64,000 nucleotides of DNA from Chrysophaeum taylorii (lineage: Eukaryota > Sar > Pelagophyceae > Pelagomonadales > Pelagomonadaceae), in the NCBI GenBank assembly GCA_029834535.1, contig JAQMWT010000340.1, positions 62,001 to 126,000 on the forward strand. Reading direction: 5' to 3'. This document shows positions 24,870-45,154 of this stretch, one piece after another. The number at the start of each line of letters is the position of its first letter. Positions within the stretch are counted from its first letter, which is position 1. The position numbers and the translations under genes were made by a program. The notes beneath the pieces were generated by a model. It ran no database searches. It saw only the letters and a list, made by a program, of their open reading frames with translations, and was not told where the DNA came from.

Positions 24870-26312
24870 TTCGACCTCTCGCCGACGCTGAGTCCTACTT
24901 CGCCGAGTTCAAACGCCGCCTCGATTTACCCGACGCGCGAGAAACGATTCCGCACGACGAGCTGTTTGAAGAGGTCTTCGACCTGTGCTTCTATATGCAT
25001 CCTGGTTCGCTCAGCCCCGAAGCGCACGCGGCCTTTTTCAACGCCCTCGACCGGGACAAGAACGGGCGCATATCTTTCGTCGCGTCGCGGGTGTTCCGCC
25101 GGCGGCGGCTGGCGTCCTGCAAGTCCATGGCCGACTACCTCGCGTCGCTGCCATCTTCCGGAGCGTTGACTAGCTCGACGATCGGCACCGACGCGCTTCA
25201 GGACGGAGACTACGGGACGGGCATAAATAATCAACCCCCCAGCGAATAAGCCTGCCATTACGAAGCTGTTCATCGAGCCTAACGTTCCGGACTCGCCACC
25301 GCCTACTCACCAATACAAGCGTGCCTTGCAACACACGTTCGAGGGGCATTCGGAATGGGTATTCTCGATTGCCTTCTCGCCCGCGGGCGACCTCCTCGCG
25401 ACGGGCTCCGGCGACAAGACGGCCAAGCTTTGGGATGTGCAATCGCGGAGACTCGTCCACACGTTCGAGGGAAATTCGGACTCGGCACGCTCGGTCACCT
25501 TCTCGCCCGCTGGCGACCTTTTCGCGACGGGCTCCGACGACAAAGCGGCCACGCTCTGGAGGCTTGACGTGATCCCAGCATTCTTTCGAGTGTTTTTCGA
25601 GGCCGAGCGCGAGTTGTGGAGCAGCGAGAAGGCGCTCGAATAATGCCTCGCTCCCGAGGTTGCCGACACGACTGAGCTGGCGCTCTTCTACTCGGCGGCG
25701 AGCGCCGCTCAGAAGCACGGCGACATAATGCTCTACGAGAAACCGAAGTTCATCCGCGAGGCTATCGGCAAGGCCGCGAGCGGCTTCCGCTTCGACTGCG
25801 AGGCGCGCGTCGCGACCGCCCTCAAGCTCGCGATTGAAAAGGCAAGGGCCGACGAGGTCATCACCCACGACGAGGCGCTCCGTCTGGACCGGCTATTGGA
25901 CCGGGAAGACACGCTGAGCGACGAACGCTTTGTCACTCTGGTTGCTCGGGTGTCGAGCCTCGAACTGCGCGTCGAGAGGCTCGCCAAACACACGAGCAGC
26001 AGCAGTCTGGCGAAGTAGCGCCCGCCTTCGCGGAGTATCTCGACGAGCGCATCTATCTCGACCGTCCAAGATCTGGCTGGTACGGCGCTAGAGTACGCGC
26101 AGCGCGTCGACGAAGAGCTGTTGTAGTTTAAAAAGCACTATCGCACGCACCTCAGCGCAAGGCAGCTGTCAGCATGCTGTCGGCCGTCGTGGGCGCATTC
26201 ACGATGGGCGCGGGTCCAGCGTCGTCGGCGCCATCGACGACTTGTTCTACGGCGTGGTCGACTTCTCCGACACGCGCCACGTCGTTACGATGATGAAAAA
26301 GCGGCGAGCGCA
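24870..26312 (+). pseudogene. Decayed gene with EF-hand-like, WD40 and helical segments
   Basis: Protein-like sequence runs through this stretch but is broken by stops (TAA 25641-25643, TAG 26016-26018 and others) and frame changes. Recognisable parts in order: an EF-hand-like loop DRDKNGRISF (about 25050-25080); two WD40 repeats with FEGHSEWVFSIAFSPAGDLL and GSGDKTAKLWDVQSR, then a second copy (25320-25580); a helical segment with coiled-coil (25730-26015); and GAFTMGAG and DDLFYGVVDFSDTRHVV near 26190-26290. The large stretch at 25326-27066 is largely one reading frame, so it may have been one gene with the ORF at 26313. Short introns cannot be ruled out for some breaks. Confidence 0.55.
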
Positions 26313-27330: not shown

Positions 27331-27648
27331 TGCAGAGAATTCTGCTAGGCAGTGGTTGGATCACTGAAAGACCTTCCCGTCTCACCGCGCGAGTCTGGCA
27401 AGGATAAGTAGGTTTCAGGGAACTAAAATATAGGGTCCCCCTAGCCTCGGCACACGACAGACGATACATAGCAACACATCAGTGTAACATGTAATTACTA
27501 CGTACCTACGGGACGCGCTAGACCATGATGATGAGCTTGAGCTCAAATCAGAGGACTAATTGATTGTGTAAAGGGAAGAAAAAGGGTAAGGAAGAGATCG
27601 CGTTCTCGACGGACGGATTAAGAGTAGGAGTTAGCAGATTTCTCTGCA
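27331..27648 (-). repeat. 3' LTR of the copia element
   Basis: 318 bp. Begins TGCAGAGAATTCTGCT and ends AGCAGATTTCTCTGCA, so the termini form a near-perfect 16-bp inverted repeat. It aligns over its whole length to 38767-39090. Confidence 0.95.
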
Positions 27649-27655
27649 CCCCCTC
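27649..27655 (-). promoter_or_regulatory. Polypurine tract beside the 3' LTR
   Basis: Reading the minus strand, GAGGGGG directly precedes the LTR start TGCAGAG. This is the expected position of the plus-strand priming site. Confidence 0.6.
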
Positions 27656-27783: not shown

Positions 27784-28461
27784 TCACGGCTTGGACTTGG
27801 TGATAACACTCTGAATACTTTTAGCAAGGGAAACTTTGAAAGAGGGAAGTGAACGTGAGTGTGAGGCAGAAGTTAATGATAACGGTGAGGAGATTGCTTG
27901 TTCCTCTTGGACCTCACATATGGCGGGAACGTCATCATCTTCAGGTTCAGAAGGAGGATTGATGCTCTTTGCGGAGCAATGTTGAGGTATGATTCGATGG
28001 GTAAGTGAGAGTAGTTTATGTAAGATTTGTGGGATGAGACTGCTCAATTGTAGTTCATCGAGGTTATCCTCGATGAACTGCGGGATTGTGAAAGGATCTT
28101 GGAGTGACTCAGTTTGTTGCAAGGCTGGATAATGAGTCGTGCGGATTAACTCATTTCGGAGTTGAATGGGAGTATCATCGGGCATGCCAAAGATCAAGTC
28201 GTGTTGGTCATTCAGAGCGAGAGTGAGTCTGTTGAGTAACTCACACACCTTGAGTAGGGTTACCAGCAAACCATTAGTATTAGTAGTGGCTGGAAATAGC
28301 CGATTTTCCATGTCACGGAGGTTTGTGACAGCAGTGTTTAAGTCAGACCGTAACGCAGCATTTTCGGTAGTTTGGGCGTGGAGGCGTTGATCCAATTGTC
28401 CATATGACGTTTGGAGAGCCACAGCCTGTTGAGCAAGTTGAGTTACTTGGGAAGATAATGC
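27784..28461 (-). CDS. ORF3b: coiled-coil C-terminal part of the extra 3' ORF
   Basis: Begins right after TAG 28462-28464 in the same frame as ORF3a and runs about 225 codons to the stop at 27784. The first 60 residues are a coiled coil (for example LSSQVTQLAQQAVALQTSYG and NAALRSDLNTAVTNLRDMEN). The rest is acidic and then Ser/Lys-rich at the end (SHSRSLPSFKVSLAKSIQS). No transmembrane segment is seen. Sirevirus env-like ORFs also end in coiled coils, but there is no sequence-level identity I can claim. Expression would need readthrough of the TAG or its absence in active copies. Confidence 0.55.
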   Translation of the reverse strand, partial: ALSSQVTQLAQQAVALQTSYGQLDQRLHAQTTENAALRSDLNTAVTNLRDMENRLFPATTNTNGLLVTLLKVCELLNRLTLALNDQHDLIFGMPDDTPIQLRNELIRTTHYPALQQTESLQDPFTIPQFIEDNLDELQLSSLIPQILHKLLSLTHRIIPQHCSAKSINPPSEPEDDDVPAICEVQEEQAISSPLSLTSASHSRSLPSFKVSLAKSIQSVITKSKP

Positions 28462-29813
28462 CTAAAGGTCTGGGAAAGTGGTAGTAGTAGCTGGTGCTGG
28501 TGCCGGGGCAGTAGATGGCATTGGCGAGTAGTTTAATGTCGTTTCGGTCGCAGCGGTAAGTTCGTTATAGAGATCAGGGTAACGTGATGATAAGAGCTTA
28601 GCAAAATCTTTACGATCGTCATCGTGGAAAGTAGTAGGTGATGATATTTCATCAAAGATAGACGGCGGTCGTTCATCATCAGTTAGAGTGTTGTACTCGG
28701 CAATGTGATGTACGAGGGAGCGGCAGAGAGTGTGAACCAAGGGCTGATGAGCACTTGCCATAATAATCGACTGCTTCTTTGCATGTGTGCGAACAATTGT
28801 CACAATAAGCGACAAGTGTTCCAGATGAAGCCGAGAAATAAACTTGAGGTTGAAGGGGTAGGCCACCATTTGTTGAGAATCTGCTGGGAGCGTGGAAGGC
28901 ATAATTATATCAGCGGGTAGAGAATGTTCCTTGACTAGTTCTTGCAGCAGTGCGTGCAGATCCAGTGGGAGAAAGTAAACGCGGATGATGGTGGCACGGA
29001 GGTGACCAGCGGGTGATGACTCAAAAGGGAAAATGACCAGACGTGCGTTCCACGCGAAGAAAAGAAACGAGAAGATATTGTGGTCGGTATTTCTACATGC
29101 ACAACACATACCCATAGTAGGAACAGAAACGGGTATGAAGGCGTTCCTAATGTGTGATTCGCTGGCGAGATGTTCTAAGACAGCGGCAGGTAGCTCATCT
29201 ATCTTCCGTTTGTAATTGGAGACACAGATTTGGAGCGGCTTGCCATCCTTGTCAAAAGACAGTGGAATGTGGATTGCTGAGTCTCCTTCTTGGGACCTCG
29301 ATAACAGTGTGTAGCATGTATTGCAGGTGCAGAGGGAAGAGGGAAGACGACTGGTGTCCTGACTGAACACGAAGACCTGGTAGTCCAAGTGATCACGAGA
29401 CGCGTAGATAGAATCGAGTGCTTTGGGTAGCTCGGTATGTAGAAATGACGATAGTAAACTGGTGAAAGAAGGTTTGAATTTTGATCTGACAGGATCGATA
29501 ATCCTTGTTCCTGCTGAGAGACATTAAAAATTACAGAGTCGGCAAATAATGCTGGAGAGTTGGAGTCAGGGCGGATCACAGCGGCAGAAGACGAGAGCAA
29601 ACGGGTAATGTCATCGCGAGTCGGCTTCCTGCGGTTCGGAGGAGTGTTGGTAGAAGACTCAGCGGGCCTAAGTGTGCGAGACAGTTCGCGACGGGCGGGC
29701 GTGACTCCACGTGGGTGGCTGCTGCGCCAGTGATGCATTGGCGACGCATAAAAAAAAAGGGTAGTGGCAAAAGATGAGGGATAGTTTGATGACATTGCGG
29801 TCGGAGCTAGAGA
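28462..29813 (-). CDS. ORF3a: extra ORF downstream of RNase H, function unknown, one frameshift
   Basis: Follows pol after a single in-frame TAA (29814-29816). The frame carries a candidate processing site at 29781-29801, then about 110 codons, then shifts phase near 29400-29480 into a 308-codon frame ending at TAG 28462-28464. It contains cysteine pairs (CTCNTC, later CCACRNTDH) that could bind zinc. Hydrophobic stretches around FSFLFFAWNARLVIFPF (about 29050) could be membrane-active. A second processing-like site lies at 28528-28548. The position matches the env-like ORF of Sireviruses, which also lies behind a lone stop codon. The function is not known. Confidence 0.5.
28528..28548 (-). 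other. Candidate polyprotein processing site 5 (TETTLNY)
   Basis: Encodes ATETTLNY followed by SPMPS, between the main part of ORF3a and the coiled-coil part. Nucleotides resemble sites 1-4. Confidence 0.5.
29781..29801 (-). other. Candidate polyprotein processing site 4 (TAMSSNY)
   Basis: Encodes APTAMSSNY followed by PSS, at the junction of RNase H and ORF3, just after the lone pol stop codon. This is the most divergent of the five copies. Confidence 0.5.
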
Positions 29814-31669
29814 TTAGGTATCTTCTTGGTCTGAGTCAGTAGCATGGTGCATACCTAGAAGAGAACGAGACGTGGCAAAGTCGGCTGCAGGAGGCTTTGT
29901 AAAGCCATCAGCTACATTTAACTTGCCAGGGACATGGTGAACACGAATCTTCTGTAGTGCGACATATTCGCGAATTTTGAACCATCGAGTAGAAAGGGCT
30001 TTGCTGCGAGAAGAGCCGTCAGGATTGTTGGAAGATTCACAGCTGCAGCATTATCAGACAAAAGAGGTAGGCTTCTGATGAAGCGCATATCCTCGGCAAT
30101 AGGACTGTCATCAGCGTCAAAATAGGATGGAGGGTCAGTTTGCGTATTCATGTAGAATGTCGGATTAACAACAAACGAAAGCTCAAGAAGTAACTTACGA
30201 AGCCAGACTGCTTCGTCAGCGCAGATGCTGAGAGCAATAAGCTCAGCTTCGTGGGTAAAACACGAAACGATGGGTTGGTGTTTGCTTTTCCATGCGATGA
30301 GACAGTCGAACAAGTAGAAGACAAAACCCGTAGTGGACTTACTGTCTCCCTGTTCCAGTGAAGGAGCATTGTCAGCATCCACCATAGCGACTAGATGGTC
30401 GAACTTGCCAGTAGCAATGTCTTTGTCCCGGTAGTCGACTATTGTTGACAGGTCAACTCTGTTGGAGGAAATGGCGCGGAGATGATTTTCAATAGCGTCC
30501 CCTTTAGGGTGAAACCAGAGACGAAGAGCTCGATTGGCAGGTTTGCTGAGGTACCTTAGGAGGTGACAGAGCATTTGGACATGCACATAGGTGGGAGAGT
30601 GCATACCTCGGGAACAGCGTCCTAGAGCTTGGGAGAAATCGGGGCGACAAGCAACTTGCATGAAGACCAATTTGCCAAGTAGAGTAGCGAAGTGATCGTG
30701 GATATAAATTTCCACGTCGGTAGAAGGAGAGCCCTCTGTATAAGTGAAAGTGGACGAAATGGGATACTTCAGTGGTGTGAGGTTTTTAAATATAGGATGA
30801 TCGTTGAATAGTGCTTCTAGTTTGGCTTGGACATCTAACGATATGGATCCATCCGGCGTTCGGCAGACACGCATTCCCAGAAGAGTATGGACTGGCTCAA
30901 ATTGTTCCACAGAAAAGCGCTCATGTAACGCGGCTTGTAACTCTGAGCGGAGAGTGTCGTCGTTTGACACTATAACAATATCGTCCACTGATAAACTGCA
31001 GATGACGAAGCGAGCGTGCGTAGACGTACGAACATATAAACAAGTATCCGCATGGAGTCGCTTGTATCCAAGACTCCGAAAGAAGCTGTCAATCTCTTTG
31101 TTCCAGAGAGAAGGAGATTGTCTGAGTCCATAGAGAGACTTCAGCAGCTTGGGTAAACGGCGGCCACGGTATTTGTCGTCTTGTGGGTCGAGTAGTTTGA
31201 TACCATCCGGGAGTTGGACGTAGACGTGTGCGTCAATGTCGGACTGGACGAACGCGTTGGGCCCGTCACTGTGGTAGACCGGTAGGTTCTTGTAAGCCGC
31301 AATAGCTAAGATGACACGTATAGCAGTCATAGTTGCCATAGGGCTAAACGTCCCAAAGAAATCGGCGCCAAGTGAGGCTAGAAATCCACGCAAGACTAAT
31401 CTAGCCTTGTGCTTGATGTAATCGCCAGACGCATTCGTCTTGATCTTGAGGACTAGCCGGCTGTCAATTGGACGAGTCGAAGCACCAGGTAGAGATAGTT
31501 TGAAGCATCCGAAGCGCACTATATCATGTAGTTCCTTTGCGATTGCCTTGACATAGGCTTGTCTGTCTTCAGGAGAAAGGCCTTGAAGACACTTGAGTTT
31601 GTACTCGTCAATGGATACGTCGGCCTCTTGGACCTTGTATTCGTCCGGACCTACGGTGGCTGGAGGGCC
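29814..31669 (-). CDS. Copia pol: reverse transcriptase and RNase H
   Basis: Part of a 1027-codon frame (33001-29918). Copia RT signatures: RLVLKIKTNASGDYIKHKAR, ATMTAIRVILAIAA, then SDGPNAFVQSDIDAHVYVQL, LLKSLYGLRQSPSLW, and the catalytic box LSVDDIVIVS (codons about 30980-30991). The box reads SVDD where copia normally has YVDD. RNase H follows with VDADNAP, CFTHEAEL and EAVWLRKLL. The end of RNase H continues in another phase from about 29980 (KIRVHHVPGKLNVADGFTKP) to TAA 29814-29816, so one frameshift separates it from the main frame. RT copies the element RNA; RNase H removes the template. Confidence 0.92.
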
Positions 31670-31690: not shown

Positions 31691-33838
31691 CGAAGCAGTG
31701 TAAAGGACTTCGGGATATGCGTGAGTGGCGCAAGTGGAAGGGGTAGAGTTGTCAGGTTCCAAGGCAACCACAAGGAGTGGTTCCTCATGAAGTACCTGGG
31801 TGATGTACTCGGTAGAGCATAGGAGGTATTCCTCCAGGTCAGATAGTTCAGCGGATGTAGCGCCAAACTCAGATGGCGAGTGATCGATGAGACTGGTGGG
31901 TGCCAGGTAACAGTAGGCGTATTGCAATGGAGAGACACCAAACGCTGAAGCATGTTCCATGAACATAGCGACAAGTGAAGACGGGAGGTGACCACATGGA
32001 GTGTCATCAGTGATGAGGTGTGTAGCTACTGGAATGATGGATGCGCACTTGGTTTGCGAGAAAACACCATCCAGTATGGGATAGCGAGACAGAAGGTCGG
32101 TACGCAATGGAAGGAGGTCTTTGACCAGCAGAGCTTGTTCCCCCTCTGGGCAGATAGCCGTCCAGTGGATGCCACCAGAGGTGTTGAGGGAGGAGAGGGT
32201 GGGTGATTTGAAATCGAGATAGCGATGTTGAAGGTCCCAGCGGAAGTCAGCGAGTTCCCCACCAGCGGCTTTGTAGGCACCAACCGTAGAAGCTTGGAGC
32301 CGAGCATTGACAGAAGGCCTGGAGGAGGCTTTGCGCCGGTTGGGGCGCTTCGTCCCCATGACAAGTTGAAGGTTGTCTTGAGAGAACAAGTCCTTGTAAG
32401 AAGGAAGAATTGGTGGTGGCGAAATGGTATCGTCGTCAGCAGGAGTCTTGTCGTCGGCAGGAGATGAAGCTGCTGCTGTAGGCGGAGGGGTATGGGACGG
32501 AGTCGGCGACGGAGCAGGAGCGGGAGGGTGCCCCCTCCGAGTATGAATCCCCCTCTGAAACGCATCATTGGGGTCTTCATCTCGATGAAGGTTAATGTCG
32601 AAGGACACTGGCGTAGCATCAGGTGGAGGAGCATGTTCAGGATCCAGGGTGGAGCGGCGAATCATGTATGAGAAGGTCAATTTGGAGATGACGCGAAACT
32701 GGCCATTTTCAGGATTAAGGACAACATCAGCTTGATGGTCAACATGAGGAGAGACAAGTGGATTTTGAGAGTTGGCGCAGCGCAGGTCGAGATAGCGTCG
32801 CCGAGAGGGCTCATCCTCGTGGTGTTCATGAGGCTCAAGGAGAAGGAAGCACTCGCTGCCAAAGATCTTGATGAGATCATGTTGGGGTGTTGCTAGTTGA
32901 TTATACAGAAACTGCTGAGGGCTGATGATGGCATGGTGAATGCGTTCGAGTGAGGCATTTGGGAGGATGTTGTATGATTGAATGGTGTGGATCACAGCCA
33001 CGGGAAGTGGATTGCAGGTTCCACGATCTTGGCGCCACGGTAATGAGCATTGAGAAGGTTACGGAGGCGAGTTGAGAAGGAAGAAGCAATGAAGCCTATG
33101 CTTTGTTCGACTTCATGGTTATGATGGTGAAGGTAAGGCGGGAAAGCGACAAGGCTGATATCATGCTCGACCCTGTAGGGAGTGGTGATGTATTTGCTGA
33201 AGTACGGCCGGAACGCGTCTTAGTATACTGTGCGTAAATGCACATTGAGTTGGGTCTTGCAGAACGGATGCAGGTAATCGAGTGCCTGCGTGAATTCGGT
33301 CGCGTTGGTGGTGCGAGTGAAGTAGGCTAGTAGGAACTTCGATAGTAGTTCTTTGAAGACAATAATGTGGGTGAAGCCGCCCCATTCAGACGGTATGGTT
33401 ACGTAGCCACCGTCGCAAGCCCAGACTTCACCGGGCCGGAGGGTCTGTTCAACATTGGGCTTGGTCTCGTTATTTTGGTCGTGACGGTGGCGTTTGTTGT
33501 GGCAAAAGCAGTCTATGCACATATCCCTGTATGGCATATCAGATGCTGAGAAGCCAGGGCGAGCAAGGACGTCTGGGGCTCTAGCAGCAACGTTGTCAGG
33601 GCAATGGTGTACGTTGTGGAAGCGGATGGCGCGTTCTTCGGCATTTTGGTACGACGGTGCCATGGGAGAGCGATTTGCGAGGAATTGCCTTGACCGGAAT
33701 GTGTTTCTTCCGACGGACATTGAATTTGAGTTCGGTGGATGCATCTAGCGATGGGGCATCAGGATCATCGCTGGTGTCCGCGTCATCGGCAGCGGGGGTT
33801 GTAGAGAGGGCTTCTTCCGGTGTTATTCCTGAGGAGCG
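31691..33838 (-). CDS. Copia pol: integrase
   Basis: N-terminal HHCC zinc region (IRFHNVHHCP, later MCIDCFCHNKR) near 33600-33480. The catalytic core follows: first Asp in VWACDGGYVTI (about 33400), second Asp just after TAA 33220-33222 (HLRTVY-stop-DAF), and Glu in HHNHEVEQSIGF. The core continues to a phase change at about 33005-33030, then the C-terminal part, with the copia-specific HDLIKIFGSECFLL, lies in the long frame starting at 33001. A proline-rich linker (about 32560-32430) and a further 200 residues of unknown role precede site 3. The nonsense codon and frameshift disable this copy as it stands. Confidence 0.85.
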
Positions 33839-34059: not shown

Positions 34060-35700
34060 CGTGATAATTGCCCGCGGGTAGGGCATTGCTGAGTAGGTCG
34101 CAGCATAAGTCTTTCTTCAGTGAGAGTAAGAAGGACGTCTGGGAGCGGGTATGATTGTTGGCTTTGACAAGTTCGGATCGAGTAGGGTAGCGAAGTTTGC
34201 CATTGCGAGGGTCCAACAAGATTATATTCACATATCCCCGGATAGTTGGCAATGGAGCTAACATAGAGTGAATTTTGGATCCAACCTTGCGGTCGCTGCC
34301 ACGTAAGTAGCCGATATGCCGGCTATGAGAAAGATGGTAATCTTCCAAGGAAAAATATCTGTCCTTGAAAGTGAATTGATCGGAGGATTGGTTGTATGAG
34401 AGACAGCAGGGCTTAACAAGAGAGCACTGTTGGAGTAAGTTGCGGATGGCAGGAACAGTGCTGTGGGCTGTGTTGACAGGGGGGTAGGCTTGCACTAGCC
34501 ATAAATATCCCTGAAACGAATCGAGATGGAGCGTCTTATCGGAGGGGTTATCGCTACCGGTTAGGGTGTGTAAGTAGATCCATATGCGTCGATAGAAGCC
34601 TGATATTTACTCGCGTAAGGATGTGGATATTGAAGGTAGATGAGGATGTTGTGAGAAATAACCTAGGTGCGGGTTTGTTAGTTTCGCGCAACATAGTAAG
34701 ACACAGGTGTGGGAGTGTTAGGCGAAATTCAGGCGAATAAATTATAAGGGGGGACGAATGATTTGAGGCGGATAGGATTTGAAGATCCAGGTAGTGGTTG
34801 GTTAGAGGATCTCTTGAAACCACGGTGGAGATAGGAGCACTCCGAGTGCGTTTCGTGAGTATGTTGTTCGAAAGCTTGCTGTGAATGGAGCCTGAGAAAG
34901 AGTAGGTTGAGGGTCTCAAGCTCATAGAAGCTTAACCGAACGGAACCAGTGCGAGAGTACAAAGGAAACGTCTTGGGAGATTGAACCAGTGGTGGATCTG
35001 GGTAAGTGCGAACCCAGTCTTGAGATAGAGTCTTAGACAGCCAGAGGGTTTTAGGCACCGAGTTAATATCATCTGCTATGTCCAAGAAGCGCTTCGGGTG
35101 CTGGTTCGGCCAGGACAGGATGTCCATGGGTCCAGTGTTGTACCTGCGAGCAATGCAGATCCATCGTTCTCGAGATTGTTAATCGCCACATAGATAAGTA
35201 GGGAAGCGGTCGAATACATCAGCGGTGTAGTCCAGTGTGGCGTGAATGAGGTTAGCCACGGAAATGTGATCCCTGTGGATACACTTGTGAGGGGGTGTCA
35301 TCTCCGCAAGTAGGACTAGGGGTTTCAGTAGCTTGATGACAGAAAGCATATTCTCAAAGAGGGAGTCGTCGAGCAAACTGACCAAGTCGGCTGTTTTGGT
35401 GCTCTTGAGAAGATTTCGGTTGGTGCAAGGAGGAGTGGTTTCTATCACATCACAGTAAAAATCCCGTCTTTCATCTTCTGTTATAGAAAGGAGATGATTG
35501 AGGAAAGAAGGTAGAGATTCGAAAATACTAATCTTTGGAAAGTGTTTGCATAACATGCGTATAGGAGTTTCATCGGACTTAACGACAATCTTAACGTCGA
35601 TGTTTAAGCCCAAGTCATGTGAGGCTTGTGACAGAAACGCAGGTGTAGTCAATCCGGAGCATAGCAAGATGACTGTTGGTTTGCGAGAACCATTGTTGGT
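34060..35700 (-). CDS. C5-cytosine DNA methyltransferase-like domain inside the copia element
   Basis: Spread over several frames, the hallmark motifs occur in canonical order. Motif I: LLCSGLTTPAF (about 35640-35670). Motif IV: DVIETTPPCTNRN, whose catalytic Cys codon is 35425-35427. Motif VI: LLKPLVLLAEM (Glu codon about 35302-35304). Motif VIII: QSRERWICIA (35149-35178), directly after TAA 35179-35181. Motif IX-like: RYPTRSELV (about 34170-34192). Motif X: LSNALPAGNYHALF (about 34050-34090). The stretch between VIII and IX would be target recognition. The family transfers a methyl group from SAM to cytosine C5. The copy has a nonsense codon and phase changes, so activity in this copy is doubtful. 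Its position between protease and integrase suggests release by the element protease. Confidence 0.75.
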
Positions 35701-36795
35701 AGTTGATAAGAATGCTGGGCGAGTGCGCAGTCAAGTGAGAGACGGATTATTGCTCCCAACATATTCGTTCTGCTTCCGAAGGTTGAGAAGCAGAGTGCGC
35801 AGCCACGGCCGAGTTTTGAGCTTGGTGACCAGGTAATTGTAATAGTGACAAAGGTTTTCATTGTACCTCTTCAGCGGGAAGGATAGTGAACGTAGCTCAA
35901 GGTTCCTATCGCGTGCAAGAGTGTAAGGTAGACACGGTAGTGCCGGGAGGTCGTGGTCGACGTAGTGAATAGGCACATTCACGTCTTTATCAAGTAAGCT
36001 AGTGAGATGCGACATATTTGGCTGTTCACTGTCGTTGAGGGTGACAGTTAGCTGTGCCTTGTTCCACTCGGGGGCACTTAGGATAAATAGGTGTCGACCC
36101 TGCACTGGCTTGAGGAATAAGGCGTAGTCAAGCTTGACGTAGCCGATACCTGGGTGAGCAGGTAGGGGAGATACGATATTTTTCGTGATCATAATATGCG
36201 ACACCTGCTGTTGTCCAGTGGCAGTTTGGAGAACTGGGGCACACTTATGTCGATGGGGACAACATGATTCGGCAGGACGAAATCAAATGTGGTCATTAAA
36301 GAGATGGATGCGCAGCTGTCCAGGTATAGGAATTGGAAATGAAGGGGGAGATTATGGTCGCTCCAATATTTGGTGAGAAACGCGTTTTCGCGAGGCACAC
36401 TTGTGACACTGGTAGAGGGAATGCTGGCTGCGAACAAGCTGGTTTGTGTAAGTAGCTTTGAGGTGACCACAACTTGTGAAAAAGTAATAGGGACGACGGA
36501 CGCAGTAGGTTCACCGTCGTCCCTTGCCGATACCGTTGTTAAGATCGAATGGTGAGAGATCTTGTGGGTTACTCGATGATGTAGTATCGGCCGCTGCTTG
36601 ATCGGAGCTCCTACGGCACATAGCCGCAGTGACATGTGACGAGAGCTTAGTCAGCCTCTCAGGTGACAATTTTGCTATAGCGTCCGCAGTAAAATTGACT
36701 GATTCCGCGGAAACAGTGGCGGGTGATGAACTGTTGCCACTTGCGTTAGATGGAGTGGAGGAGTTGGGTGCAGACACAGTAGGTTGGTCTGCCCC
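35701..36795 (-). CDS. Copia protease region
   Basis: Starts in the -1 frame relative to gag, just after site 1, with a Ser/Thr/Asn-rich leader (36777-36520), then changes phase. The aspartic-protease active site is LYLDSCASISLM (about 36305-36340), in the place of the usual L-D-S-G-A-S; the Gly is Cys here. A further piece at 36204-35731 (GIGYVKLDYALFL and others) probably holds the rest of the fold plus an unassigned segment. The enzyme would be a homodimeric retroviral-type protease that cuts Gag-Pol. Phase changes at about 36520 and 36200 break this copy. Confidence 0.7.
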
Positions 36796-36816: not shown

Positions 36817-36851
36817 CGAAAGCAGATGTATGTCAACGTCCCGAACGATAT

Positions 36852-38183
36852 CTACTCGGCATAGGAAAGTTGATCATATAAGCGGAGCAAATCTGTATTA
36901 TCGTCTGGGTTAGACGTAGTGGCAAAAATATCAGCAGATTGCAAAAACGTTTCAAATAGCTTTGTAATCTTATCTTGCAGCTGAGACGTAGTGGCACTTT
37001 GGTCAGTATATTTGGAGAGTTCACGAAATTGATCTTTGAGTGCATGCATGGCATGCTTTGTGCGATCTAACAATTTCATATCCGATCGAGAAGGTCTGTC
37101 GAAGGTGCGTGCATACGCAGGTCGATCGTTAGATTGACCCGGACTGCGAGCTCTGGTGACATAGGAGTCACCTGACCGGTAGTAGCTAAGATCATTATGA
37201 GAGAAGGGCAGGCTAGCGTCTTTTGAGTTACGTAGGCGTCGTGCGTTAAACGCTTTCGAGTTACGTAGGCGTCGTGCGTTAAACGCGGGTTTCGACTGTT
37301 GTCCATTGGCTGAATTGGTAAGTGACGCAAATACATGTGCTGTGTGCGCCAGTTCAGTGTCCGTAGAGTCCAACAGCCTGGTTAGCAGTAATTTGGGTTT
37401 TTGATGTGTGGACAATCCTTCAACGTAAGGGATCCAAGAGACTGGCGGTTCAAGACGTCTTTTATCGCTTGTAGTATTGGACACTGAGTTGTAGAGGTCC
37501 AACGCGAACTCAAGAATGGCTGAAGAGTCAGAAGGATGGCATACCCTGTTAGCTTCAGGTTGTGCTCTGGTAGAAGAGCGTGTCTCGTAGATGAGGCACC
37601 AGTCGACCCATCCTCTATCGTAGCGATTGTTGCTGGTGTTATCGGCGAAATGGCGGTGAATTTCTTCATAAATTTTACTGCAGAGCGTGGATTCATCAAA
37701 TTGTAGGTCAGTTTCTTCCTGATTAAGTTGGAAAGAGAGATGTCTGAAGGACTGCACGCATTCAATGAAGACATGTACATACCAGTTGGGGTTATACACA
37801 GCAGCGTTAAATTGCTGTTTCAGACACGACACGTCGTTACTAGAGTCTGTTTCGTAGAGGTTAAAGGCAATGAGCATGACAGCTCGGGTTTAATTAGGGT
37901 GGTAATGCCGATTGTATACCTCAGTAATGGCTGGCCAGGCCGTAAGAGCGGGCTTACCCACCACACTTTCGTGGTTAAAGAAAGTATATAAAAAGGTGGC
38001 ATAGGTAGATTGATATAAAACGCAGTAATTGCCTAATATGTCTCACTTGGAGCGAGACCTACCGACTTTGTGGAGTTGAAACCGGTTCCCATCATTGAGA
38101 TACTCAACAACAGGGGCTTCTAATTTCAAAACATCCGCACCAGTGACTGCCTTGGGTGCGGCTCTTGCTGCTCGTTCCGCCAT
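36852..38183 (-). CDS. Copia gag
   Basis: ATG 38181-38183 opens a frame (MAERAARAAPKAVTG) of 443 codons to TAG 36852. It is interrupted by in-frame TGA and TAA before codon 103; the last 341 codons are open. The protein is Ser/Arg/Asn-rich with a likely nucleic-acid-binding basic region (ARSPGQSNDRP and TFDRPSRSDMK). No CCHC zinc knuckle was seen. A 33-bp tandem duplication at about 37224-37289 repeats an 11-residue unit (AFNARRLRNSK twice). Gag forms the virus-like particle. The pol frame lies in -1 relative to gag with about 20 nt overlap, and no canonical slippery heptamer was found. Confidence 0.75.
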
Positions 38184-38750
38184 GAAGACGGTGACTTGAA
38201 CCTATAGTTCAGTCAGAGAGCAGTTGACACAATTAGACATTCTAAGGGGGTCTGTCTAGCGGTGTCTATGTACACTCATCAGGTAAACAATGGAAGCGCC
38301 TATATGGCAACTGTACAAACTGTGGTTCCTGCCAGTGTGAAAGGGTATGCACTGAACAGGCAGTTGTGTAAGGTGGTGCTCGGAGAGCGGTAGGTTTGTA
38401 CTATCGTGGAGTGTCCTAGCGGACATACCCAAAAAATTCCAAGCGCGCGTGCAATTAATACAAGACTAGTACAGACTACACACACACCGACACTGTCCCA
38501 CCCACATCCTTCATGCTCCCCACACACACCCCCCCTCTTAGCAGTCGACATTTAAAGACACTGTCACGACAATACGATACTATAAACAAGCACACAGGGG
38601 TACGCAGTCTTTAACATGTGCGGTGTAGCTATGTACAACCCGTGTTAAAGCGCATACAAACAATTGTGTTCCATGGCGAGGCTAGACCGGCGCGGTAACG
38701 GTCCAAAACCCAATAAGTATGTGCATGCAACACGTGATCACTCAGGACCC
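38184..38750 (-). other. Copia 5' leader
   Basis: Untranslated stretch between PBS and gag ATG. It includes a block (38497-38555) that recurs at 53.83 kb. A low-complexity GT/G-run lies at about 38515-38536. Confidence 0.6.
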
Positions 38751-38766
38751 CGCTGGGCCCATAACC
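38751..38766 (-). promoter_or_regulatory. Primer-binding site complementary to the anticodon arm of initiator tRNA-Met
   Basis: Immediately inside the 5' LTR the minus strand reads GGTTATGGGCCCAGC. Its complement, GCTGGGCCCATAACC, is the anticodon stem-loop of eukaryotic initiator tRNA-Met. Drosophila copia is known to prime from a 5' half of the same tRNA rather than from its 3' CCA end. The exact abutment to the LTR supports the call. Confidence 0.8.
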
Positions 38767-39090
38767 TGCAGAGAATTCCGCTAGGCAGTGGTTAGATCAC
38801 TGAGAGACCATCCCGTCTCACCGCGTGAGTCTGGCAAGGATAAGTAGGTTTCAGGGAACTAAAATGTAGGGTCCCCCTAGCCTCGGCACACGACAGACGA
38901 TACATAGCAACACATCAGTGTAACATGTAATTACTACGCACCTGCGGGGCGCGCTAGACCATGATGATGAGCTTGAGCACAAATCATCAGAGGACTAATT
39001 GATTGTGTAAAAGGGGAGGAGAAGGGTAAGGAAGAGATCGCGTTCTCAACGGACGGAATAAGGTAGGAGGAGTTAGCAGATTTCTCTGCA
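38767..39090 (-). repeat. 5' LTR of the copia element
   Basis: 324 bp, starting TGCAGAGAATTCCGCT and ending AGCAGATTTCTCTGCA. It differs from the other LTR at about 15 substitutions and a few indels of 1-3 bp. By homology it carries the promoter, but no TATA box was confidently placed. Confidence 0.95.
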
Positions 39091-41046: not shown

Positions 41047-41485
41047 CGTGCAACAGCGACGCAAGTATCGCGATCAACTTGATTGTTCAAATCGATGACA
41101 CCACCTTCGTCGAGCTGTGGCAGACGCATATTGAACTTCCCGTTTCTGCTATCCGTTTAGTTTCGAACATACTGCAAAACTGAGCTGGCGACGACGGTTT
41201 CGCCAACAAATTGGCTTAGGCGCTCTCCTCTTCAGTACAATGAATGAACCCTCGGTCGGGGGCTCCCGACAGGAGTCCCGAGCCTCAGCAAGCAGCTTGG
41301 ACTATTTTTAAAAATGTCGAAACCAGATTTCATGGAATACTACGCTCCCCCCGTGTGGCTCTCCGAGCTCCGGTCTCGACGCCTCGTTCGAGGCTGGGCG
41401 TGGGGCTGCGGGCGGGGGGGGCGGTAAATTTGGTTGTGGGGTTAGTTATCCTCGAAATAGGCTATGTAGAAGTAGTAGGATAACA
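41047..41485. other. Intergenic between divergent genes
   Basis: No gene. GC-rich patch around 41330-41430. The 5' flank of the ZRANB3-like gene is AT-richer just before ATG 41486. Confidence 0.5.
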
Positions 41486-44400
41486 ATGGTTTTTAAATCG
41501 CCGTTGGAAAAAAAAAAAAGTTATTGGGCCGGGCAACATCCGCCCGCGGATGTTATGAGCCTCGGCATCGAGTTTGAGGAAGGGATGGTACCGCGGGGGG
41601 TGGGGGGGATCGCCCTGCGCGGGGGCGGCGTCCAAGTGGAGATGACGTCGATCTCGTCACTCGGGGAGGCGGGGGCGAGGGTGTGCGTGGTGGGGGTCGT
41701 CGTGGCGGCGGGTGAGTTGATCGAGGGGAGTGAGGAGTGGAGGGCGCGGGTGCGGGTGACGTTGAGGTCGGGGCCCGGGCGGCAGGAAATCTGCAGCGCG
41801 ACGCTGTATGGGGACCTCGCGTGGGCGTGCCGCGGGTGCCGGACGGCCGCGACGCTACTCGTGTCGGAGGCGCGCGTCGAGGGCGAGAAGGAGATCGCGT
41901 CCGGCGGTCGAGGCGTCGCGGCGTTCGTCGAGGACGAGGTGCTGGTGCGTGTCGAGGCCGCCTGGCTGCGGCGGTCGAACCCCGAGTGGACGTGCGAGAA
42001 GGCGCACCGCGTCGCGGCGAACAAGCTCGGAGCCTTCCGCAAGAAGGCGGGTTTGACGACGGGAACGGCCGCGCGGCTCGCGATGCGCGGAGAGCGGTGC
42101 TGGCGGTGCGGCGACGCCTACGAAATCGATCGGTGTGCCTCGTGGCCCGTGTGCGCCGGTCGCCGCGGCAAGGCGGGCGATTCCCGCGCCGTCGCGATCG
42201 AGCTCCTGCCGGGCCTCGAAACGTTCCGGGTACGACCGTTGCCGCGGCCGCGGTGCGAACCAGACGCGACAATCTCGGAGGAGGAGGTGCACCCCATCTG
42301 CGCTTTAGAGAGTGTGGCGACGCGGCTCCGGCGGCGCGCGGAGCTAGGCGAAATCAGGGGCCTCCGCGAGCCGCCGCGCGCGGCGCTCGAGGCGGCGAAA
42401 AAGTTTATTGACGACGACCCCGAACCGCTTTTGGCCAAGGTTCCGCCCAAACTCCGGGAGACCCTGCTGCCCTTTCAGGTCGAGGGAGTGCGGTTCGCTT
42501 TCCGCAAGAAGCGCGCTCTCCTCGCGGACGAGATGGGCTTGGGAAAGACGCTCCAGGCGATCGCGTTCGCGTCCGCGCTCGACGCCCCTCTCCTCGTGTT
42601 GTGTCCCGCGGGCCTCCGCGCGTACTGGGCCGACCAGCTCGAGACCTGGATCCCGGACCTCGACCCGAGCGAGCTCTGCGTCGTCCGGGGCCAGAACGAC
42701 ATGCCGGCTCCGCCCCCGGCATCCCCGCCGCGCGCGCTCGTCATCAGCTTCAGGATGCTCGAAAGGCTGCCCGAGCTAAGCCAGACGTTTACGTGGCCGA
42801 CGGTCGTCGTCGACGAGGCTCACGTCCTCGCGACCCCGGCCTCGAACTTCGCGCGCCAGGACCCCGCCGTCACGCGCGTCGCCTGCGACCTGATCCGCCG
42901 CGCGACCAACGCCCTCCTCGTCACCGGGACGCCGTCGCTCGGTCGCCCGATCGCGATGTTTTCGGCGATCGACGCGCTCGCCGCCGGCTGCCGAACGCGC
43001 AAGCACTGGCTCCAGAGCCTCCGCGCCCGCGACCGCAAGCACAACTTTGCGCGCGCCTGGGCCGGGGCGCGCCGCCAGCGCGCCGCGCACCGCGGCCGCG
43101 TCGCCTACGACGCCCTCGCCTTCCACGGCGAGCTCCACGCGATCCTCGAAAAATTGTTCATGGCGCGCCGTCTCAAAAGCGAGGTCCTCGCGCAGCTCCC
43201 GCCCCTCACCCGCTGCGTCGCGCGCGTCGAACACAGCGCAGCCGCGACCTCCTTCCAGACTTCTGGCCTCGCCAAGCTCGACGCGGCGGCCAAGTGGATC
43301 GTCGAGCGCCTCGTCGCGACTCGCGGCAAACTCGTCGTCTTCGCGCATCACGTCGCCGTCCTCGACGGCCTCCACGCCGCCCTCGAGGCCGCGCGCCGCG
43401 ACCCCCCCCTCGCCCGCGACGACCACCACGACGACGACGACGACGACGAGAATCGGGGGGGCGGGACGTGGTTTGGTCGGCTCGAGCGCATCGACGGCTC
43501 GACCGCGCCGGGCTCGCGCGTCAGAATCACGAGAGATTTCTTCCGCGACGCCTCGTTGCGCGCGGTGCTCGTTTCCGTGACGGCCGGGGGCGTCGGCATC
43601 GACCTCTCGGCGGCGAGCGAGGCTATCTTCGTGGAGAGCGTCGGCCTCGGCGCCGCGTGGCTCCGCCAGGCCGAGGACCGCCTCCACCGCCGCGGCCAGA
43701 CCAACCCCGTCCGCGTCGTCTACCTCCTCGGCCCGGTCGGCTCCTGGGACAACCGCCTCTGGCCCCTCCTCGACGCCGACCTCCGCTCGGCCTCGGCGGT
43801 CTTCAACGGCGAGAACAACGCCGAGGCCTTCGCCGTCGACACCGTCGGCGCGCTCCCCGTCGGCGGCGGCGGCGGCGGATCCTCGACGCCGCCGCCGCCG
43901 CCGCCGCCGTCGTCGTCGAGACCCGAGGCTGGGCCGACGACCGACGCGGACGAGACCCTGGGGTTCCAGGTGTCGGCGCACACGGGCCGCGTCCACCTGT
44001 GGGCGGCGGGGACGCGGCTGCGGGAGAACTTTGACCTCGGCGCGCTCGAACGCGTCGAGCGCCTGCCGCCCGCCTTGCGCGACGACCCGAGACGACTCGC
44101 CGCCGCGCGTCGGTTCGCGCGCGAGTGGGAAGCCCTCGCGCCGCGGCAGCGCGACGTCCTCGCGAACGCGACGGTCGCGCCCCCGCTCGTGGCGGCCGTT
44201 TCGCGGCTCGACGTCGAGCGCGCGAGAGAGTCGCGGCGGCGCCACCTCTGCTCGCGAGAGCTGGCGACGCGCGCCGAGTACCACGAGGCGGGGGAACTCC
44301 AGGTCGTCGCGATCGAGGCGCGCGAAAGGAGGGGGAACCTGCCGCCGATCGTGCGGACGGTGTGCCGCGCCGACGGGTCGGCGAAGTGTCTCGTCTGCGA

Positions 44401-45154
44401 CGCGTTCTACGCGTGTTCGGCCGAGTCGCTCGCGCCCGACGCCCCGCCCCTCAAAAACGTCGCGTCCCTGTTTTGCGGGCCCCGATGTCGCGCCCGCTAC
44501 AAGGCGACCTCCTCGGCGACGGGCCTCAGGCAGCTCGTCTTCGCGCGCGACGCGGGCGCGTGCGCCAACTGCGGCGCCGACGGCCATCGTCTGGTCGAGG
44601 AGCTGACGGCGCTCAAGGCCGCCGACTGGGGCAGGCGCTACGCCCGGGGCCTCGAGTTGAACGAAAAATGGGCCAGGTACCCGGAGCACTTCAAAAAGCT
44701 CATAGAGACGCCGCGCGACGGCCTCGCCTGGGAGGCCGACCACGTGCGGCGCGTCGCCGACGGCGGCGGCGAGGCCGCCGTCGAGGCGGTCCAGACCCTC
44801 TGCGTGCCCTGCCACCGCGACAAGACCCGCCTCGAGAACTCCTCATCCAGCAGGAGGAGGAGGAGGACGAGGAGGAGGAGGAGGAGGAGCAAAACAACAC
44901 TGCACGCTTCTCCTTCTTCTTTGAAAGAAAACATCGCGTCGTCATTGTCGTCCGGCGATGATCATCAGGAGACCAAGAAGAAGGCCAAAAAGGCGCTGCC
45001 ACTGCAGCAGCAGCAGCAGCAGCAGCAGCAGACGGGTGGTCCCCTTCAGGACACGGTCGTCAACACGAACAGCAGCGAGAAGGAATTTCGCGTCGCCGTG
45101 TCGTCGGACGACGACGAGGCGCTCTTCTCTGACGAGGAGGTGTGGGTTAAATAA
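41486..45154 (+). CDS. ZRANB3: ZRANB3-like SNF2 annealing helicase with C-terminal HNH endonuclease
   Basis: 1222 aa, intronless. Residues 1-300 are specific to this protein and include a zinc-ribbon-like CWRCGDAYE. The SNF2 core spans about 325-770: LLPFQVEGVRFAF, Walker A ADEMGLGKTLQ at about 347, VVDEAH at about 440, LLVTGTP, VSVTAGGVGIDL, and RQAEDRLHRRGQ at about 730. Residues 970-1120 contain FCGPRCRARY, VFARDAGACANCGADGH, WEADHVRRVADGGGE and QTLCVPCHRDKT, an HNH nuclease laid out as in animal ZRANB3. That enzyme remodels stalled forks and cuts branched DNA at PCNA-bearing forks. The tail has polyQ and acidic runs. A PIP box or APIM was not found by eye. Confidence 0.9.
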   Translation: MVFKSPLEKKKSYWAGQHPPADVMSLGIEFEEGMVPRGVGGIALRGGGVQVEMTSISSLGEAGARVCVVGVVVAAGELIEGSEEWRARVRVTLRSGPGRQEICSATLYGDLAWACRGCRTAATLLVSEARVEGEKEIASGGRGVAAFVEDEVLVRVEAAWLRRSNPEWTCEKAHRVAANKLGAFRKKAGLTTGTAARLAMRGERCWRCGDAYEIDRCASWPVCAGRRGKAGDSRAVAIELLPGLETFRVRPLPRPRCEPDATISEEEVHPICALESVATRLRRRAELGEIRGLREPPRAALEAAKKFIDDDPEPLLAKVPPKLRETLLPFQVEGVRFAFRKKRALLADEMGLGKTLQAIAFASALDAPLLVLCPAGLRAYWADQLETWIPDLDPSELCVVRGQNDMPAPPPASPPRALVISFRMLERLPELSQTFTWPTVVVDEAHVLATPASNFARQDPAVTRVACDLIRRATNALLVTGTPSLGRPIAMFSAIDALAAGCRTRKHWLQSLRARDRKHNFARAWAGARRQRAAHRGRVAYDALAFHGELHAILEKLFMARRLKSEVLAQLPPLTRCVARVEHSAAATSFQTSGLAKLDAAAKWIVERLVATRGKLVVFAHHVAVLDGLHAALEAARRDPPLARDDHHDDDDDDENRGGGTWFGRLERIDGSTAPGSRVRITRDFFRDASLRAVLVSVTAGGVGIDLSAASEAIFVESVGLGAAWLRQAEDRLHRRGQTNPVRVVYLLGPVGSWDNRLWPLLDADLRSASAVFNGENNAEAFAVDTVGALPVGGGGGGSSTPPPPPPPSSSRPEAGPTTDADETLGFQVSAHTGRVHLWAAGTRLRENFDLGALERVERLPPALRDDPRRLAAARRFAREWEALAPRQRDVLANATVAPPLVAAVSRLDVERARESRRRHLCSRELATRAEYHEAGELQVVAIEARERRGNLPPIVRTVCRADGSAKCLVCDAFYACSAESLAPDAPPLKNVASLFCGPRCRARYKATSSATGLRQLVFARDAGACANCGADGHRLVEELTALKAADWGRRYARGLELNEKWARYPEHFKKLIETPRDGLAWEADHVRRVADGGGEAAVEAVQTLCVPCHRDKTRLENSSSSRRRRRTRRRRRRSKTTLHASPSSLKENIASSLSSGDDHQETKKKAKKALPLQQQQQQQQQTGGPLQDTVVNTNSSEKEFRVAVSSDDDEALFSDEEVWVK

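Follow-up and report, generated by a model that had tools for sequence, protein, structure and literature searches.

A cytosine C5-methyltransferase-type domain between protease and integrase in Ty1/copia retrotransposons of Chrysophaeum taylorii

Results

The 64,000-nucleotide stretch of the Chrysophaeum taylorii genome analysed here (the window; contig JAQMWT010000340.1, positions 62,001 to 126,000) contains on its minus strand, at 39090-27331, a structurally complete and decayed long terminal repeat (LTR) retrotransposon of 11,760 bp, in which a domain of the cytosine C5-methyltransferase type is situated between a protease-like motif and the integrase core. Three related families in the genome carry this domain: family A, which includes the window copy, and families B and C, where it also lies between protease and integrase. 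On the evidence of these relatives, the domain is very probably a C5-methyltransferase captured by a retrotransposon. The element is laid out as follows, in window coordinates.

38767 to 39090, minus strand: 5' LTR, sharing 93.2% identity across 325 aligned columns with its partner at 27331
38753 to 38766, minus strand: primer-binding-site-like stretch GGTTATGGGCCCAG, directly 3' of the 5' LTR
36843 to 38275, minus strand: gag region in a broken frame, located by tblastn to the 960-residue open reading frame (ORF) of relative L039
36303 to 36320, minus strand: protease active-site-like motif DSCASI, identified by motif and position, without a profile match
35731 to 35733, minus strand: in-frame TGA followed by CTG at the protease/methyltransferase boundary, shared with relatives
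35179 to 35730, minus strand: N-terminal half of the methyltransferase with motifs I, II, IV (PPC) and VI, closing at the TAA at 35181-35179
34199 to 35178, minus strand: motif VIII and a target-recognition-like insert of about 300 residues, in a broken frame
34070 to 34198, minus strand: motif IX candidate RYPTRSELVKANNHT and motif X (LSNALP), the same pair as in families B and C
33220 to 33744, minus strand: integrase core (Pfam rve, E 5.9e-4, under the curated cut-off)
30827 to 31480, minus strand: copia reverse transcriptase (Pfam RVT_2, E 1.4e-40), with SVDD at 30991-30968
27784 to 29523, minus strand: third ORF, 3' of RNase H, in a broken frame, ending before the 3' LTR
27649 to 27655, minus strand: polypurine tract GAGGGGG, abutting the 3' LTR
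27331 to 27648, minus strand: 3' LTR, pairing with the 5' LTR

Both LTRs start with TGCAGAGAA and finish with TTCTCTGCA, and the flanking bases match as a target-site duplication at only four of five positions (CTGCG/CTGAG). The stretch GGTTATGGGCCCAG is presumably complementary to the anticodon arm of the initiator-methionine tRNA, and we take DSCASI to be the protease active-site motif. The integrase region at 33651-32998 is 77% identical over 218 amino acids to relative L040, in which rve (E 0.0076, under the curated cut-off) and RVT_2 (E 7.7e-42) lie within one ORF; the reverse transcriptase coordinates in the window were calculated from residues 527-744 of the ORF at 33058-29918. The carrier is, by its domain order, a Ty1/copia element, because the integrase core precedes an RVT_2 reverse transcriptase. 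The primer-binding-site-like stretch and polypurine tract at the LTR borders agree with this assignment, and RVT_2 together with the domain order does not fit a Gypsy, DIRS or long interspersed nuclear element (LINE) carrier.

Within the domain, on the minus strand, lie the sequences that we take to be motif I (LLCSGLTTPAF, 35667-35635), motif IV (TPPCTNRN, 35436-35413), motif VI (LLAEMTPP, 35313-35290), motif VIII (QSRERWICIA, 35178-35149) and motif X (LSNALPAG, 34093-34070). The original prediction had listed six motifs in the order of C5-methyltransferases and placed these five correctly; its motif IX has to be moved to KLRYPTRSELVKANNHT at 34198-34148, which is the best candidate because it precedes motif X and because families B and C have counterparts of it. 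In known C5-methyltransferases, motif IX lies shortly ahead of motif X. The residues between VIII and IX, about 300 in number, form the target-recognition-like insert. The order I-II-IV-VI-VIII-insert-IX-X is found in all three families, family B having a partial motif VIII (ISKTR) and reading LPCQ in motif IV and ENVPP in motif VI. The domain had further been described as built into the polyprotein between protease and integrase; its position is borne out by DSCASI at 36320-36303 on one side and the rve core on the other, but in families A and C it is the first domain after a conserved UGA rather than part of one open frame. The window copy itself is, judged by its lesions, a dead fossil, since Lys replaces Glu in its motif II (a Lys seen in no other of the 45 copies of A and C), a TAA at 35181-35179 stands immediately ahead of motif VIII and there are several further frame breaks.

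The PF00145 search of the translated window pieces, proposed with the original prediction, returned no match at E ≤ 1; nor did any other C5-methyltransferase family of Pfam at that threshold, and neither piece matched a methyltransferase in PHROGs. The case therefore rests on the relatives, through conservation across 45 copies, low ratios of nonsynonymous to synonymous substitution (dN/dS), and profile and structural matches. A chance resemblance of motifs in a decayed element that has no methyltransferase would agree with the blank searches of the window pieces; given the PF00145 and PHROG matches, conserved residues, dN/dS and structural matches of the relatives, it is hardly credible, the PHROG match and the VIA-align result (below) jointly speaking strongly against it. 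We dropped this candidate on the relatives' conservation, profiles and selection.

The original prediction had staked itself on some copy matching a C5-methyltransferase profile, and family B provides the match: its copy L046 scores 34.2 bits against PF00145 (cut-off 22), and 10 of 12 family B rows match at E ≤ 10. A PHROG methyltransferase profile is matched, at E 2.1e-6, by L043, which is closely related to the window copy. A structure model of A matches the C5-methyltransferase fold; in Foldseek, human and insect DNMT2 fill the first four rows (E 1.3e-8 to 4.7e-8), and VIA-align puts DNMT1 on top, with ties, the DNMT1, DNMT2, DNMT3 and bacterial enzymes coming close together.

Several results weigh against the assignment to C5-methyltransferases. 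The PF00145 profile missed family A (2 of 36 rows, best E 0.072), so that its curated cut-off is passed by family B and by neither the window copy nor families A and C, and an NCBIfam scan of A and C found no C5-methyltransferase. In single PHROG scans of 12 A and C pieces, L043 alone fell below 0.001, while five others lay at 0.0038-0.057 and another at 0.39; no match was obtained for the remaining five, which include the two window pieces. Sequence profile searches of the PDB returned nothing relevant with A and a weak match with B (8yf3, E 0.11 and 0.3), and a reversed B profile, aligned to A along 31 columns, still reaches a score of 25.9. The structure model of A is poor (mean predicted local distance difference test score, pLDDT, 36.6; 141 of 600 residues at or above 50), and that of B (mean pLDDT 27.9) was useless and was not used. 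Canonical C5-methyltransferases have a second Gly in motif I and ENV in motif VI; in A and C the second Gly of motif I is missing and motif VI reads AEM or MEM. Other searches were blank: a protein database gave nothing at E ≤ 0.001 to polyprotein-length queries, either with residues 1-620 of A (5970 candidates) or with residues 190-860 of B (6863 candidates), and a single-protein search of viral contigs, which reaches close relatives only, found no relative of A or B. Alignment of A or B by hhalign with the single host DNMT2 protein gave nothing meaningful, in a weak test that even B fails.

Across 45 distinct copies of A and C, the residues expected to be needed for catalysis are nearly invariant: the catalytic Cys of motif IV is present in 45/45, the motif II Glu in 44/45, the motif VI Glu in 44/45 (the remaining copy having Asp) and the motif VIII Arg186 in 44/45, while the 37 copies that cover motif X have Asn in 33 and a gap in 4. 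The loss of the PPC, motif VIII or motif X residues had been named as a second way in which the assignment could fail, and these residues are retained (Cys 45/45, Arg 44/45, and Asn 33/33 where there are letters). Stops within residues 1-200 occur in 8 of the 45 copies, and those inside the 183-residue piece are sporadic, at least one being present in 25 of 150 rows among the matches listed.

We calculated dN/dS for seven loci, namely the window and those retrieved to a length of 10 kb, with family B loci removed and saturated or tiny-dS pairs dropped. The median was 0.11 both for motifs I-VIII (11 of 21 pairs) and for motifs IX-X (18 of 21 pairs), 0.20 for the integrase (11 of 21 pairs), 0.12 for the reverse transcriptase (9 of 21 pairs) and 0.23 for the insert (8 of 10 pairs, from five of the seven loci); when all 33 A copies were compared, the value for motifs I-VIII was 0.08 (332 of 528 pairs). 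One caveat applies: copies were chosen by their similarity to the first 183 residues of the window domain, which pulls dN/dS down there and not at motifs IX-X, and the IX-X value is therefore the less biased one. By these ratios, the domain is under purifying selection. It is distinctly improbable that the captured domain is now non-catalytic and serves as a nucleic-acid-binding or structural part of Pol; the departures of motifs I and VI from the canonical forms and the poor profile scores of A would suit such a role, but the catalytic residues are near-invariant (Cys 45/45, Glu 44/45, Arg 44/45) and the insert evolves faster (0.23) than the catalytic half (0.11).

Of 30 A copies, 29 have an in-frame TGA directly before the domain; the exception, L015, has other sequence immediately upstream of the domain. 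The TGA also occurs at the corresponding place in 12/12 copies of family C, though the A and C proteins differ in about half of their residues. A genome-wide pattern in which the stop codon was left as NNN found 60 sites, and the same 60 were found with TGA fixed; the pattern did not fix the wobble base of the following codon, which is CTA at 59 sites and CTG at one. The UGA did not arise as a lesion private to the window copy, given the TGA of the A and C relatives and the 60/60 pattern sites. The context is UGA-CUA in 23 of the 29 UGA-bearing A copies, in agreement with type II readthrough sites, where UGA is followed by CUA or CGG. UGA-CUA is the type II context in alphaviruses (PMC3542737) and the human high-readthrough consensus (PMC4359377).

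Readthrough of the UGA in families A and C is likely on this pattern, and not proven, because four of the 29 UGA-bearing A copies read UGA-AU(G/A) instead of UGA-CU-, the window copy reads UGA-CUG, family C reads UGA-CGC (12/12 copies) and the RNA 3' of the UGA has no structure stronger than that of shuffled sequences (five sequences, z -0.16 to 0.49, one piece starting just after the stop). Most type II sites have been proposed to have a 3' RNA structure, a stem-loop about 8 nt past the stop, and none better than in shuffles was seen in the same five sequences. It also weighs against readthrough that the UGA junction of Tca2 alone drove none in yeast (PMC2194720). The UGA might instead be the true end of Gag-protease, with methyltransferase-Pol made by reinitiation, from an internal promoter or from spliced or edited RNA. 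The UGA-AU(G/A) copies, the Tca2 junction and the lack of 3' structure lean that way, as does family B, in which gag terminates at UGAUG and protease-methyltransferase-Pol follows in the -1 frame, as in stop-start reinitiation, in four of six readable copies (L045, L046, L047 and L006; the overlap is absent from L007 and L008). We nevertheless hold a true stop to be unlikely in A and C, which preserve the frame across the UGA, needlessly for reinitiation, and have CTA as next codon at 59 of 60 sites despite the free wobble base. The overlap in family B would fit either stop-start reinitiation or frameshifting.

The host assembly searched comprises 70.8 Mb in 697 contigs, and its 84 matches to light-harvesting proteins mark the host as an alga. 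Family A gave at least 150 scored matches to the 183-residue piece of the window (869 first-look candidates), family C, which shares about 52% identity with the window copy across 281 residues, at least 131 scored matches, and family B at least 151 matching rows, some of which are pieces of one copy. The contig pairs C25/C521 and C10/C297 have matches at near-identical coordinates, and the assembly may hold duplicate haplotypes; copy counts are therefore rough and perhaps slightly inflated. PF00145 was found at 57 places, of which the two best are host genes, and all six multicopy places inspected among the 57 are family B. At least 66 of the best 150 RVT_2 matches have a methyltransferase 2.5-6.5 kb upstream among the matches listed (10 of the 151 family B rows included). 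The remaining 84 of 150 do not show absence, as C344 is among them and yet the locus L049 on that contig has motifs VIII-X. At L049 (C344:73500-80500) a truncated C copy is situated just downstream of a frame resembling the third ORF, an arrangement that suggests nested or recombined tandem elements. The third ORF of the window element is 32% identical over 373 amino acids to an ORF in L049; its 353 residues at 29523-28462 matched no Pfam family, and by eye the ORF at 29523-27784 looks coiled-coil-like.

Discussion

Our analysis points to a domain of C5-methyltransferase fold that copia elements have kept, and we think it probable that it is made as a UGA readthrough product, packaged and directed at new cDNA. 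The order in families A and C is Gag-protease, UGA, then methyltransferase-integrase-reverse transcriptase-RNase H, to which the window element adds the third ORF past RNase H. Ribosomes would mostly stop at the UGA and yield Gag-protease in quantity, and low-rate readthrough would append methyltransferase-integrase-reverse transcriptase-RNase H to give Gag-protease-methyltransferase-Pol. Since it would be made by readthrough together with reverse transcriptase and integrase, the methyltransferase would be packaged alongside them in the virus-like particle, where it could methylate the new cDNA, either ahead of integration or as it takes place. The methyl mark may disguise the cDNA as host DNA or protect it against nucleases or editing; a further possible effect is the silencing of new copies, which would limit harm to the host. 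De Mendoza et al. proposed such a scheme for SymbioDIRS (PMC5890265), and ours is modelled on it.

That the substrate is DNA rather than RNA seems fairly probable; that cDNA is the main target is a closer call, which we put slightly below even. The ratio of observed to expected CpG is 0.81-1.04 in the elements (eight loci and the window element) and 1.34-1.46 outside them, in the remainder of the window, a host ORF within it and two host gene loci; the lower CpG of the elements is only compatible with their methylation, because base composition differs too (GC 0.44-0.54 in elements versus 0.61-0.70 in the comparison sequences). A C5-methyltransferase fold acting on RNA in the manner of DNMT2, on packaged genomic RNA or the tRNA primer, is rather unlikely. 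Human and insect DNMT2 do occupy the first four Foldseek rows at the E-values given above, a primer-site-like stretch adjoins the 5' LTR and the domain would be packaged beside RNA; but VIA-align ranks DNMT1 first, with ties, and the insert between motifs VIII and IX, at about 300 residues, exceeds the smaller one of DNMT2. For the Symbiodinium elements, RNA methylation has been raised in the case of SymbioLINE, whereas SymbioDIRS domains methylate CG in DNA in yeast (PMC5890265).

The host has enzymes of its own, a DNMT2-like protein and a DNMT with an SNF2 domain (DNMT5-like). The latter is encoded by a 2086-amino-acid open frame (L002 plus L063, on C621) with PF00145 and SNF2 domains, and this DNMT5-like gene suggests that the host itself maintains 5-methylcytosine. 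More tentatively, and with less confidence than in any single part of the scheme, much of the copia population of this alga may, since before the split of A, B and C, have depended on a self-encoded C5-methyltransferase, whose dose in A and C would be set by UGA readthrough and which the particle would deliver to methylate the element's own cDNA before the host marks it.

Capture of DNMTs by retrotransposons has been published for LINE, DIRS and Gypsy elements (PMC5890265), including the captures in Klebsormidium and Symbiodinium that the original prediction had mentioned. KnitGypsy-Dnmt3 of Klebsormidium nitens is, like the present elements, an algal LTR retrotransposon with a C5 DNMT in the Pol region under purifying selection; unlike them, it has a Gypsy carrier and a domain of the Dnmt3 clade, and the account of it mentions no stop codon before the DNMT (PMC5890265). 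SymbioDIRS-Dnmt3 and SymbioLINE-Dnmt of Symbiodinium amount to hundreds of DNMT copies per genome, with the DNMT conserved like the reverse transcriptase; their carriers are DIRS (with a tyrosine recombinase) and LINE elements, as against copia here, and the Symbiodinium Copia elements are described as lacking a DNMT (PMC5890265). When assayed in yeast, the SymbioDIRS DNMTs methylated CG de novo, and the results for KnitGypsy and SymbioLINE were inconclusive (de Mendoza et al., 2018; PMC5890265). One sentence of a later paper has DNMT3 "embedded within retrotransposon structures", LTR Copia and DIRS included (PMC12344493; Mol Biol Evol 2025). It thus names LTR Copia as a DNMT carrier, as found here, but the passage cites the 2018 work, which reported Gypsy, concerns streptophytes and dinoflagellates as hosts, and gives no element, domain order or readthrough. 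Our literature search, the scope of which left out most subscription papers and all preprints, found no copia element in which the domains are arranged this way or a UGA precedes the enzyme. What appears to be new is thus the copia carrier with the order protease-methyltransferase-integrase and, in A and C, the UGA before the enzyme, the capture of DNMTs by retrotransposons being already known.

Tca2 of Candida albicans is itself a copia element. It resembles the elements described here in having an in-frame UGA, at its gag/pol boundary, and differs in that the relevant account mentions no methyltransferase (PMC2194720) and in that the UGA here comes after the protease motif, so that protease would be made without readthrough. 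The type II readthrough sites of alphaviruses and tobraviruses likewise have UGA-CUA or UGA-CGG before the replicase part (PMC3542737), but not the lack of 3' RNA structure noted above for our five sequences.

That three divergent families have kept a cytosine methyltransferase domain in Ty1/copia strengthens the case that such captures recur and are useful to retrotransposons. The UGA offers a concrete, testable rule for the amount and destination of the enzyme, and what a retrotransposon gains from DNA methylation becomes approachable, as readthrough rate, particle content and the methylation of unintegrated cDNA can be measured.

Sequences flanking the element

On the plus strand at 41312-45154, adjoining the element, a single host ORF of 1280 amino acids (GC 0.70) has SNF2 helicase and HNH-like domains, the HNH match being under the cut-off; we take it to be ZRANB3-like. 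Just outside the other end, at 25332-25559 (plus strand), lies a direct repeat of about 102 bp with 82% identity.
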